Assembly: GCA_024281095.1 (NCBI GenBank)
Contig: JAMXLJ010000049.1
Span: 1-42,928, forward strand
DNA: 42,928 nt
Origin: Acidimicrobiia bacterium
GTDB lineage: Bacteria > Actinomycetota > Acidimicrobiia > IMCC26256 > JAMXLJ01
Reading direction: 5' to 3'
Both the position numbers and the translations under genes were made by a program. How positions within the stretch are numbered: the first letter of the stretch is position 1; each line of letters begins with the position of its first letter. The notes beneath the pieces are model-generated. The model made no database searches, was not told the DNA's origin, and saw only the letters and a list, made by a program, of their open reading frames with translations. Positions 4,665 to 40,422 of this stretch are shown here, piece by piece.

Positions 4665-7600
4665 ATGCGTCTCAGTCCTGCCACGGCCGGCAGGGGCGAC
4701 CACACGGGCGCCGGCGGACCGGCCCAAGGCGAACCGGCCGGCGGTGGACGCGCGCGGCGAGCCCCGCTCGTGCCGCTCGACGATTCGGGACGTCTGCAGG
4801 CGCTGCGCCGGGCCGAAGAGCGGCTGCAGGCGCTCCTGCAGAACTCGGCCGACTTCGTGCTGGTCTGGGACGGCGACGGCGCGATCACGTACTTCACGCC
4901 GTCGGTGCGCCGGTTCATCGGTGACGCGCTCGATTCACGCGAGCCCGGCAAGGAGCTCGGCATCACCCATCCCGACGACCGTGGGCACGTGCTGGAGGCG
5001 ATCGCGCGAGTCCGGGCCCGGCGCGGACGGGTCGAACGGTTCCGGTTCCGCGGCAAGCGCACGGACGGTGAGTACCGCTGGCTCGACGCGACGCTGAGCA
5101 ACCTGCTGGACCACGCAACCGTCGGCGGCATCGTGCTCAACGCGCGCGACGTGACCGGCGAAGTCGAAGCGGAACGCGCGCTGCAGGAAACCAACGACGC
5201 GCTGCGTCGCTCGAACAACACGATGTCCGCGATCGTGGAGAACTCGCCGCTCGCGATCTATGCGCTCGATCGCGAGAGCAACGTCATGCTCTGGAATCCG
5301 GCGTGCGAGCAGCTCCTCGGCATTCCGGCCGCGGACATCGTCGGCTCGCGTCTGTGGATCGTCCCCGAGGAGCAACAGCCACAGTTCGAGTGGCTCCAGC
5401 GTCAGGTCGCACGCGGCCGCGTGCTGAACGGCATCGAGGCCCGGACGCGACGGCCCGACGGTCGGGAGATCGACGTCGCGTTCTCCGCCGCGCCACTGAT
5501 CGACGAAGGCGGCGAGCACACCGGCATGCTCATCGTGTGCGCGGACGTCACCGACAAGAAGCAGACCGAGCAGGCGCTGCGTCGCAGCGAGGCGACATTC
5601 CGCGGCGTGGTCCAGCATGCGTCGGATCTCATCCTCCTGCTCGACTCCGACGGTCTCATCCGGTATGCCAGCCCGGCCGTCGAGGAACTGTTGGGCTACA
5701 CGGAGGAGAGCGTCCTGGGCCTCGACCCGGTCGACTTCGTGCACCCCGACGACCTCGAGGCCGCAACTGGATGGTTCGAGGCCGACGTCACGAACGGCGG
5801 CCCGCGCTCCGAGATCCGGGTGAAACATGCCGACGGGTCGTGGCGCGTCGTGGAGGCGATCGGGAGCAATCTCCTCGACGATCCACTGATCCAGACCTTC
5901 GTCGTGACGGCCCGCGACATCACGTCGCGCCGCGAGGCCGAGGAGGCATTGCGACGGAGTGAGGCGCGATACCGGGCCATCGTCGAGGACCAGACGGAGT
6001 TCATCACCCGGGCCGACAGCCAGGGTCGCTACACGTTCGTCAACGACGCCTTCGCGCGGGCGATCGATCGGACCCCGGTTGAGCTGCTCGGCCTCAGTGT
6101 GCTCGAGCTGTTCGACGCGGGGGAGATCCAAGAGGTCCTCGACGTCATCGACGACCGCGGTCGCGGCACTGTCACCACCGAGCACCGCACCGTCTTGCCC
6201 GATGGTGAAGTGCGGTGGGCGCACTGGACGACCCGGCCCGTGCTCGACGACGACGGCGAGGTCGTGGAGTACCAGTCGGTCGGACGGGATGTCACCGATC
6301 GCAAGCGGGCCGAAGAACGGCTGGCCGCCCAGGCGGAGATCCTCGAGCTCGTCGCCAAGGGCCGCCCGCTGTCGGAGACGCTCGACGCGTTGTGCGCGGC
6401 GGTGGAGCAACACGTTCCCGGCGCTCGCACCGCGGTCCAGTTGCTCGACGAAGCCGGTAGGGGCCTGGTGTGCGCGGCCGCACCCGCGATGCCGGAGAGC
6501 TTCTCGCGCGCTGCGGCGACCCTCGCGGTCGGCCCGCAGGCCGGCGCGTCGGGCGCCGCGGTTGCGACGGGCTCGGAGGTGATCATCGCGGACGTCGCCT
6601 CGGATCCCGGCTTCCGCGCCCACCGTGACGGTTGTCTCGCCAACGACATCGCGGCCATCTGGGCGATCCCCATCCGCTCCGCTTCCGGTGGTGCAGTACT
6701 CGGCGCGTTCACCGTGTACCACCGGTTCGCGCGTGGCCCGCGCGACGACGAGCGCCAGCTACTCGGCCAGATCGTCCATCTCGCCGCGATCGCAGTCGAC
6801 CGCAAGGCGTTCGAGTCGCGCCTCGCCCATCAGGCACATCACGACCCGCTGACCGGCCTGCCCAACCGGAGTCTGTTCTTCGAGTTCCTCACCCACGCGC
6901 TCGCACGGTCGAGCCGCAGCGGCTCGGCGGTCGCCGTCTTGTTCCTCGATCTCGACCGGTTCAAGTACGTGAACGACAGCTTCGGGCACGACGCGGGCGA
7001 CGAGCTCCTCGGGACGCTCGCGGAACGGCTGCAACGCGTCGTCCGCCCCGGCGACACGATCGCGCGCTTCGGCGGCGACGAGTTCGTCGTGCTCTGCGAG
7101 GACCTGCCGGCCGACACTGCCAGCGAACGGGCAATCGAGGTCGCTGAGCGTCTCATCGACGTCGTGCAGTCGCCCTTCTCGTGTCAGGGTCAGGCCCACT
7201 TCCTGAGCACCAGTATCGGCATCGCGTGCTCGATGGGGGTTGACGCGCGCCCCGAGGCGTTGCTCCGCGACGCGGACGCTGCGATGTACCGCGCGAAGGA
7301 ACGCGGCAAGGGCCGATGGGAGGTGTTCGACGAGGCGATGCGCATGAGCGTCGTGCAACGGGTGGAGACCGAGAACGCATTGCACCGCGCCATTGAGCGT
7401 AACGAGTTCGACGTCTTCTACCAGCCCGTGCTCTCACTGCGCGATGGCCAGTGCGTCGGCGCCGAAGCGTTGGTGCGTTGGCGGCATCCGGAGCGCGGGC
7501 TCGTCTCGCCGACCGAGTTCATCACACTCGCGGAGGAGACCGGCCTCGTCGTGCCGCTCGGACAACTGGTGCTCGAACAGGCATGCCGGCAGGCGGAGGT

Positions 7601-38709: not shown

Positions 38710-39186
38710 TTAGGCGGCGGCCCCGGCGACGAGGCCGACCGTCACGGTGGCCCCGCCGTCGACGGTGGTGCGGACGCCGGCGAGATGGCCGTCTTCGATG
38801 ACGGGTTCGCCGCCCGAGACTGCGTGCAGGATGGCCGGCGGTGCCGGGCGGTCGACCGCGGTGCACGTGGACCCGGCCGCGACGTCGAGCGATCCGATCC
38901 AGTCGTGTCCGGGCGTCGCGCGGGTCTCGAAGCGCTGCAGCACGCTCGCGCCGACCGTTGCGTGGGCCGCGGTGGTGATCGGGCTCTCGCACGTCACGTC
39001 CACGGTGCCCGTCACCGGCGCATCGGTGGCCTGCACGCGCAGGATCAGGCGGGTGACCGGCGCGGCCTTCGAGCCCCCGATGCCACCCGGGCCGCATGCG
39101 CCGAGCACGGCGACGAACGCGACGGCCGCGGCGGCGGCGCCTGCCGAAGCTCTCCGTGTGCCCTGTGCTTCGTGGATTGCGCGCAT
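38710..39186 (-). CDS. Small secreted lipoprotein with structured leader
   Basis: This 158-residue predicted lipoprotein has a head MRAIHEAQGTRRASAG, a hydrophobic stretch and a lipobox AVLGAC followed by GPGG. The mature domain of about 125 residues is beta-rich (VTRLILRVQATDAPVTGTVD, GATVTVGLVAGAAA) with two Cys (VTCESP, STCTAV) that could form a disulfide. No family recognised. AGGGA lies six bases before the ATG, directly after the closing stem of the predicted RNA junction, and a plausible promoter lies 145 bases upstream, so the leader is about 138 bases long. Confidence 0.75.
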   Translation of the reverse strand: MRAIHEAQGTRRASAGAAAAAVAFVAVLGACGPGGIGGSKAAPVTRLILRVQATDAPVTGTVDVTCESPITTAAHATVGASVLQRFETRATPGHDWIGSLDVAAGSTCTAVDRPAPPAILHAVSGGEPVIEDGHLAGVRTTVDGGATVTVGLVAGAAA

Positions 39187-39209
39187 GTCGGTCCCTCGTG
39201 CTGTGGCTG

Positions 39210-39311
39210 GGGCCGGTTTCGCGCTGACTCCCCGCAGGCTCCGCGACCAACTGCCGCCTGCGGATCGTTGCCTTTCCCCGAGACGATGGGTCCGGCCCGC
39301 GGGGGCGACCC
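39210..39311 (-). ncRNA. Candidate structured leader RNA (three-way junction)
   Basis: On the minus strand GGGCCGG (39298-39292) pairs with CCGGCCC (39216-39210) and encloses two adjacent perfect hairpins: ATCGT/ACGAT (39287-39264) and CCGCAGGC/GCCTGCGG (39263-39232). A 15-base purine-rich joining strand, GGAGTCAGCGCGAAA, follows. An alternative helix GGGTC/GACCC (39311-39307 with 39292-39288) would compete with the closing stem. I match it to no known riboswitch class by eye. The complement can fold the same way, so the strand is not certain; the promoter and ribosome site favour minus. Confidence 0.45.
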
Positions 39312-39319
39312 GGCGCCAT

Positions 39320-39359
39320 GTCTCGTGCGCATGAGACCACGTTCATACCCGCGTGACAA
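39320..39359 (-). promoter_or_regulatory. Promoter with overlapping palindrome
   Basis: On the minus strand TTGTCA (39359-39354), a 17-base spacer and TCTCAT (39336-39331) form a sigma-70-like promoter reading into the leader. GTCTCGTGCGCATGAGAC (39320-39337) is an 18-bp near-perfect palindrome, with one mismatched pair, covering the -10 and the likely start point; it could be an operator. Confidence 0.4.
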
Positions 39360-39402
39360 CCGGGCCATTCGACCTAGGCGTCGGGCGATCTAGCCTGTGC
39401 CC

Positions 39403-40422
39403 ATGACCGCGTCGTCCGCACCGCTCGTCGACCCCTATGGACGGCGCGTGAAGGACTTGCGGATCTCGGTCACGGACCGTTGCAATTTCCGCTGCACGTA
39501 CTGCATGCCCGAGGAGGGCATGAAGTGGCTGCCACGCAACGAGGTCCTCACCTACGAGGAGTTGGCTCGGGTGGCCACGCTCTGTGTCGATCGCTTCGGC
39601 TTCGAAGCGATCCGCATCACGGGCGGTGAACCGACGATCCGTTCCCATCTTTCCCGCCTCGTCGAGATGCTGTCGCGCCTCGACGTCGATCTGGCGATGA
39701 CCACGAACGGCGTCAAGCTGCCCGAACTGGCCCACGACCTCGCCGCGGCGGGTCTTCGGCGGGTGAACATCTCGCTCGACAGCCTCCGGCGCGACGTGTT
39801 CCACCGCCTCACGCGACGCGACGACCTGCACCGCGTGCTCGCGGGCGTCGACGCCGCACTCGACGCCGGCCTGACCCCCGTCAAGGTGAACTGCGTCGTG
39901 ATGCGGGGCGTGAACGACGACGAGGTCGTCGACCTGGCCGCGTTCGGTCGCGACAAGGGCGTCGGAATGCGGTTCATCGAGTTCATGCCACTCGACGGCG
40001 ACGACTCCTGGTCGATGGCCGACGTCGTGCCCGCGCAGGAGATCCTCGACCGGATCGACGCGGTCTTCCCGCTCGTGCGCGGAACGGGTGGCGAGGTTGC
40101 CGGCGGGGCCGAGCCGGCCGACACCTACCGATACGCGGACGGTGCCGGCGACGTCGGCGTGATCGCGAGCGTCACGCAACCGTTCTGCGGTGACTGCGAC
40201 CGTGTTCGCCTCACCGCCGAGGGCCGGTTCCGCACGTGTCTGTTCGCGCTCGACGAGCACGACCTGCGACCGGTGCTCCGCGGCGGGCTGGCGGCCGGCG
40301 AGCTGGACGACGCGCTCGCGGCGGCGATCGAGGCGGCTGTCGGCACGAAGTGGGCCGGGCATTCGATCGGCCGGGTCGAATTCGTGCGGCCGCCGCGGTC
40401 GATGAGCCAGATCGGCGGATAG
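39403..40422 (+). CDS. moaA: GTP 3',8-cyclase MoaA
   Basis: This is a 339-residue radical-SAM enzyme, first step of molybdenum-cofactor synthesis, converting GTP to 3',8-cyclo-7,8-dihydro-GTP. The N-terminal cluster is CNFRCTYC (Cys27, Cys31, Cys34); the GTP-binding C-terminal cluster is CGDCDRVRLTAEGRFRTC. ITGGEP and MTTNG are present, and the chain ends in the conserved double Gly (SQIGG). ATG 39403 has TAGCCT six bases upstream; GTG 39397 would directly abut that hexamer. It pairs with moaC 77 bases downstream, which has its own TACACT box. Confidence 0.97.
   Translation: MTASSAPLVDPYGRRVKDLRISVTDRCNFRCTYCMPEEGMKWLPRNEVLTYEELARVATLCVDRFGFEAIRITGGEPTIRSHLSRLVEMLSRLDVDLAMTTNGVKLPELAHDLAAAGLRRVNISLDSLRRDVFHRLTRRDDLHRVLAGVDAALDAGLTPVKVNCVVMRGVNDDEVVDLAAFGRDKGVGMRFIEFMPLDGDDSWSMADVVPAQEILDRIDAVFPLVRGTGGEVAGGAEPADTYRYADGAGDVGVIASVTQPFCGDCDRVRLTAEGRFRTCLFALDEHDLRPVLRGGLAAGELDDALAAAIEAAVGTKWAGHSIGRVEFVRPPRSMSQIGG

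Follow-up and report, generated by a model that had tools for sequence, protein, structure and literature searches.

The closest described systems are three Rfam families, c-di-GMP-II (RF01786), c-di-GMP-II-GAG (RF03169) and c-di-GMP-II-GCG (RF03170), whose consensus strings differ at two adjacent bases, reading AA, GA and GC, respectively. Together with a nearby G, these bases (A39218, A39217 and G39214 in the copy described below) are presumably the ligand-contacting positions, and the labels GAG and GCG are read here from the Rfam consensus strings. Three papers (PMC9943018, PMC12452182, PMC10043782) list the GAG and GCG models or cover riboswitch classes generally.

The locus compared with these families lies in a window, i.e., the whole analysed stretch of 42,928 nucleotides from an Acidimicrobiia bacterium (contig JAMXLJ010000049.1), in which the initial annotation had proposed a leader RNA of no known class between a lipoprotein gene and moaA. 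At curated cutoffs, Rfam detected only a tRNA in the whole window. The Rfam scan recommended in that annotation, done permissively over 39150-39420, aligned the full RF01786 model to minus-strand positions 39205-39284 (30.2 bits, E 9e-5 in 271 bases), and since the clan is visible in such a scan, the leader does not belong to an unknown class. By score it stays outside RF01786 (30.2 against a cutoff of 53.5 bits), while the alignment gives it the A-A and G pocket of this family; RF03169 had no match over its cutoff at the aptamer, and neither its G-A pocket nor the G-C pocket of RF03170 is present, the window reading A-A. The features of the clan (CL00127) were found: P1, P2 and the long hairpin are backed by covariation, and the pseudoknot hairpin loop and 3' strand change in concert from GGUCGC/GCGA to GGUCAC/GUGA. 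With RF01786 the window copy shares P1, P2, the long hairpin, the pseudoknot and the A-A / G pocket over a full-length alignment, while it differs in the pseudoknot letters (GGUCGC with GCGA instead of GGGCAC with GUGC), in a short P1 of only 4 bp and in extra A between P1 and P2. The GC-rich scaffold and the GGUCGC-type pseudoknot resemble RF03169, to which the nearest relatives of the window score 48-53 bits, above its cutoff of 40; in contrast, the window copy itself is below that cutoff and has A, not G, as the first pocket base. RF03170 has a similar scaffold, and the scores of A-C-pocket relatives lie close to its 47.9-bit cutoff (56.2 for L217, 47.9 for L231 and 47.4 for L209), although the window pocket is A-A, not G-C. 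As a kind the RNA is thus known, a member of the c-di-GMP-II clan, and the window copy is a putative sensor below the score cutoff.

Table 1. Coordinates of the candidate leader, its aptamer, the neighboring genes and the stems of the initial annotation in the window.
Feature	Position	Strand	Basis
-35-like hexamer TTGTCA, predicted promoter element	39354..39359	-	sequence; 17 nt to the -10-like hexamer
-10-like hexamer TCTCAT	39331..39336	-	sequence; weak match to consensus
5' leader of the lipoprotein gene	39187..39325	-	from the predicted start site up to the last base ahead of the start codon
Upstream hairpin CGAGACAUGG (39325-39316) / CCAUCGUCUCG (39289-39279), touching P1	39279..39325	-	predicted, minimum-energy fold
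Divergent c-di-GMP-II-clan aptamer	39207..39282	-	RF01786 30.2 bits; R1 78.4 bits
P1 5' strand GGGG, pairs with 39212-39209	39276..39279	-	covariation
P1 3' strand CCCC	39209..39212	-	covariation
P2 5' strand GGC, preceded by two A extra relative to relatives	39270..39272	-	register and covariation
P2 3' strand GUC	39226..39228	-	register and covariation
Long hairpin 5' strand CCGCAGGC	39256..39263	-	99.3% paired in 17 sequences; two-sided changes at all 8 pairs in 84 sequences
Long hairpin 3' strand GCCUGCGG	39232..39239	-	covariation and conservation
Pseudoknot loop strand GGUCGC	39243..39248	-	changes in concert with the return strand
Pseudoknot return strand GCGA..CC (39222-39219, 39216-39215) with pocket A39218, A39217, G39214	39214..39222	-	alignment to Rfam consensus strings
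Shine-Dalgarno GAGG	39194..39197	-	sequence
Lipoprotein ORF, 158 aa, presumed target	38710..39186	-	lipoprotein nature from signal sequence
moaA, divergent neighbor	39397..40422	+	ORF; homologues in relatives by tblastn
Closing stem of the initial annotation, GGGCCGG / CCGGCCC	39298-39292 / 39216-39210	-	7 bp
5-bp hairpin of the initial annotation, AUCGU / ACGAU	39287-39283 / 39268-39264	-	
8-bp hairpin of the initial annotation, CCGCAGGC / GCCUGCGG	39263-39256 / 39239-39232	-	
15-base purine strand of the initial annotation	39231-39217	-	

All elements from which the initial annotation had built a three-way junction were located on the minus strand, and their combination occurred in none of 2000 dinucleotide shuffles of 39187-39325, the pattern having been defined post hoc. 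The folding energy was ordinary (z -0.59 on the minus strand, with 58 of 200 shuffles folding at least as well, and z 0.15 on the plus strand) and was rejected as a measure of significance. Among 17 aligned sequences the 8-bp hairpin was paired in 99.3% of cells, with 4 of its 8 pairs changed on both sides; it is the long hairpin of the aptamer, and the purine joining strand is the aptamer core strand, so that both stand as real RNA features. The closing stem, on the other hand, was paired in 36.1% of cells with 0 of 7 pairs changed on both sides, which is the outcome (substitutions without compensation) that had been named as refuting, and it was rejected as a conserved element; since it is not conserved, the three-way junction is not real either, the actual layout consisting of P1, P2, the long hairpin and the pseudoknot. 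The 5-bp hairpin was paired in 63.1% of cells.

The check by covariation, suggested in the same annotation, had a positive outcome: homologous leaders were gathered and a covariance model, R1, was built from 25 sequences whose rows were found by similarity to the window, and the core helices together with the pseudoknot covary. In 23 distinct sequences 97.1% of cells were paired and two-sided changes were seen in 9 of 21 pairs, exceeding all 500 shuffles. A set of 84 sequences that includes true GAG copies, and at least two weak rows that are probably chance matches, gave 97.2% paired cells and 17 of 21 pairs changed on both sides, with slid controls at 27-47%. In the pseudoknot, where 39248-39243 pair with 39222-39219 and 39216-39215, GGUCGC goes with GCGA in most sequences and GGUCAC with GUGA in 24. 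Alignments A3, A6 and A9 were fitted to the structure of R1; in alignment A2 locus L026 was left out as a near-duplicate of L019 and a second copy from L025 was taken in.

The TTGTCA and TCTCAT hexamers form a sigma-70-like promoter; their spacing equals that of a TTGNNN-17-TACAAC motif in the relatives by sequence comparison, and together with the GAGG site they fit a 5' leader of the lipoprotein gene, as the initial annotation had proposed; its reading of an aptamer-like lipoprotein leader on the minus strand is retained, while the assignment to a new class gives way to clan c-di-GMP-II. The aptamer ends 20 nt before the lipoprotein start codon. The lipoprotein ORF had no Pfam match at E 1, and of the 60 relatives four have a homologue, weak and partial in two cases; in genome G017 the RNA lies 37 nt upstream of such a homologue. 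The search covered one further genome of the genus, G001; there the order moeA, lipoprotein gene, moaA is kept, and no aptamer was detectable in the 2.4-kb locus spanning these genes with filters off (best score 10.4 bits). This genome has the lipoprotein without the aptamer, which speaks against an essential role of the RNA here. A GGDEF domain is encoded elsewhere in the window (6834-7313, plus strand). A BldD-like operator, suggested by eye, was sought by a pattern search in the window alone, giving 2 matches against 4.5 expected.

Matches to the DNA of the leader region, at 76-88% identity, occurred in 21 of 60 other genomes (22 of 61 when the present genome is counted), and all 18 scanned relatives carried a clan match, c-di-GMP-II or c-di-GMP-II-GAG, at the same place, the GAG cutoff being exceeded in nine. 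Within the class, R1 matched 75 of 395 genomes and the RF03169 model 97 of 390, 90 of these above cutoff, including a second copy in the present genome. The latter (C148:30942-31017) scored 67.8 bits with R1, compared to 78.4 bits for the window and 18.1 bits for the next unrelated match, and 63.6 bits with RF03169, above the GAG cutoff, and is located 30 nt before a gene for a signal-peptide protein. Given the matches of the Rfam GAG model and of R1, the family is partly covered by Rfam in this class and the window is a diverged member of it. The protein behind the second copy (L061 1607-2041, G000:C148) has 145 aa, shows no Pfam match over cutoff and resembles the small secreted proteins behind many relatives. 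Genome G206 carries six aptamer copies on contigs C3 and C6 (L220, L221, L222, L261), five of them on one contig, and one of the six precedes an EAL gene. In L206 (G014:C110, 3501-3928) two aptamers in back-to-back arrangement are separated by about 280 bases; the A-C-G copy precedes a glycosyltransferase gene and the A-A-G copy a gene for a small secreted protein. A contig titled Bifidobacterium breve (L096, CAMBEL010000078.1) has a moaA-side aptamer with the same coordinates as G022:C78 of the order and is probably a mislabelled metagenome bin.

The window pocket is A-A-G, canonical for c-di-GMP-II. Among 160 RNAs, as far as matches were listed, 112 had A-A-G, 40 A-C-G, 4 A-C-A and one each four other combinations, in a tally biased against G at the first position and with six loci dropped as duplicates of the G-numbered genomes; the named scan (at least 80 loci) required GCGAA, and its pocket tally therefore leaves out GAG and GCG. 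The 29 RF03169 matches checked comprised 28 G-A-G and one A-C-G. Genome G014 holds A-A-G, A-C-G and G-A-G copies together; elsewhere L217 is A-C-G, L249 A-A-G and L265 G-A-G. Similar kinds of genes followed these variants. Pfam domains behind 67 A-A-G copies included subtilases (9), LPXTG anchors (6) and glycosyltransferases (5), and those behind 29 other copies (mostly A-C-G, plus one A-C-A, one A-A-C and one G-A-G) included subtilases (5), MoaA (3), glycosyltransferases (2) and one EAL domain, the gene of which starts 45 nt past its A-C aptamer, an in-frame stop codon lying in the interval. Gene calls labelled ANTI or none were kept out of this analysis. The G-A-G copies, as judged by eye, mostly stand before genes of signal-peptide proteins, and those of G046 and G048 have a protein with a type IV pilin-like start within about 310 nt. 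That AA, AC and GA copies are followed by genes of the same kinds favors a single ligand, c-di-GMP. The present genome has 19 GGDEF matches, and in 58 genomes of the order the median number (E 1e-20) was 14 with an R1 match (n = 43) against 6 without (n = 15), uncorrected for genome size and kinship. For c-di-GMP binding by the window RNA, the GGDEF matches and the kinds of genes are circumstantial pointers.

We consider it likely that the minus strand of 39187-39325 is a lipoprotein 5' leader with a divergent c-di-GMP-II-clan aptamer, and that binding of c-di-GMP most likely alters expression of the lipoprotein. The ligand, presumably c-di-GMP, would bind the aptamer (39282-39207) and lock P1 and the pseudoknot, and the locked aptamer would change expression of the lipoprotein, its presumed target. 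Activation of expression by binding is a guess drawn from kinship, namely from anti-aptamer hairpins seen in related loci and not in the window copy. Twenty-two RNAs, including that of the window, point away from moaA, and in 14 of them a stretch downstream shows strong complementarity to the aptamer 3' strand (z < -2, mean -2.28), compared to 10 of 94 other A-A-G copies and 5 of 44 A-C copies; in those loci pointing away from moaA such complementarity fits an anti-aptamer hairpin opposed by the ligand, i.e., an ON switch. The window copy showed no anti-aptamer helix beyond chance (z -0.37), and the modelled effect of its aptamer on the Shine-Dalgarno was nil (0.56 vs. 0.56). Over 94 leaders the exposure of the Shine-Dalgarno with and without the aptamer changed by a mean of +0.03 in native and +0.01 in swapped halves, up in 43% and down in 28%; with no anti-aptamer signal in the window and no common sign of this effect, the ON direction for the window stays such a guess. 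Pairing of the P1 5' strand with the ribosome site scored 18.9 in native and 17.5 in swapped form over 17 loci, the window being worse than nearly all shuffles.

The lack of a recognisable expression platform in the window copy, its scores below the cutoffs of all Rfam families, the extra bases between P1 and P2 and the missing aptamer in G001 despite the kept gene order would all fit a decaying relic, in which an aptamer that worked in the moeA-moaA spacer of the ancestors is losing function in this genus. This has a small but real chance of being right, given that all 21 pairs still form in the window copy (one of them a G-U in P2) and the pocket bases are intact in the register of the model.

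The surroundings of moeA and moaA were compared in 86 RNAs from 80 fetched loci (of 111 class-wide R1 matches written out, 86 fell within fetched regions, and weaker matches are outside the set). Thirty-two of them, from 32 other genomes of the order, adjoin moaA or moeA in either orientation. Seventeen face away from moaA, with moeA at least 344 nt downstream or out of range (16 A-A-G and one A-C-G); ten, each with C as its second pocket base, lie between moeA and moaA in the direction of the genes, the contig stopping at the moaA start in two; and five are directed toward the end of moeA at a distance of 30-95 nt (two A-A-G and three A-C-G), the moaA side being off the contig in one. G054 (L217) and G052 (L231) belong to the same genus and have moeA and moaA in the same order, while the block of about 420 bases that carries hairpin, promoter and RNA is oppositely oriented in the two, giving a reverse alignment (72.6% over 427). 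The promoter-like TTGNNN-17-TACAAC precedes the RNA in several moeA/moaA loci. A conserved stretch 40-175 nt before the aptamer beside moaA (L209, L210, L214, L217, L229, L252 and others) consists of this promoter with a CCAC-N5-GTGG-like palindrome, GGGCGGGCGG and GTGGC, for which the scanned loci gave no listed Rfam match. An outer stem scored 20.3 in native and 18.4 in swapped form over 16 loci beside moaA, at a consistent place, with few single loci beating shuffles and compensating letters in L209, L226 and L232; in 17 divergent loci the values were 14.4 and 14.5. A terminator after the RNA in the spacer had a mean z of -1.1 over 16 loci and was strong only in L211 and L212. It is conceivable, if doubtful, that in one order the c-di-GMP-II-type RNA is a self-contained unit of the moeA-moaA spacer, with its own conserved promoter and outer stem, in either orientation and sometimes geneless, which might link c-di-GMP with the synthesis of molybdenum cofactor or function as an independent small RNA, the A-C and A-C-A pockets found at that place being tuned or respecified sensors.

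A variant recognizing a different ligand, for example another cyclic dinucleotide, could be suspected from the resemblance of the scaffold to the GAG and GCG variants, which Rfam divides by their pocket bases, and from the unusual A-C and A-C-A pockets of moaA-side relatives. It appears improbable, however, with the canonical A-A / G pocket of the window and with A-A, A-C and G-A copies preceding the same kinds of surface genes, one A-C copy standing before an EAL gene. A role of the RNA in controlling moaA or the synthesis of molybdenum cofactor, either across strands or as a free transcript, draws on the 32 of 86 RNAs that adjoin moaA or moeA, ten of which run in the direction of these genes, and is highly improbable: the window RNA diverges from moaA and ends at the lipoprotein start, and moaA of the sense loci mostly has its own -10-like motif, seen by eye shortly before its start in 7 of 8 sense loci viewed. 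The Rfam Moco family (molybdenum cofactor riboswitch) had no match over the window at cutoff and none over 39150-39420 at E 10, and this or another Rfam class was rejected at the same scope. The link to moaA pointed out in the initial annotation is hence only positional in this genome, where a plus-strand moaA leader was rejected, although RNAs sense-upstream of moaA do occur elsewhere in the order. Chance hairpins in GC-rich DNA, with which the ordinary folding energy (z -0.59) would agree, are refuted for practical purposes by conservation across the class and by covariation in 23 and 84 sequences.

The literature search found no description of the moeA/moaA placement, the A-C pocket or this diverged copy, papers on the GAG and GCG variants being outside its reach; as far as could be seen, these three aspects, the A-C pocket combination included, are new. 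What looked like an orphan leader is thus a divergent representative of a known sensor family, and RNAs of the c-di-GMP-II type occur commonly in the class. The pocket letters that divide the Rfam families (AA, AC, GA, GC) intermix on one scaffold, within one class and before the same kinds of surface genes, so that natural copies allow a direct test of ligand specificity. With the recurrent position of the RNA next to moeA and moaA, a possible connection between c-di-GMP and the synthesis of molybdenum cofactor can also be put to the test.
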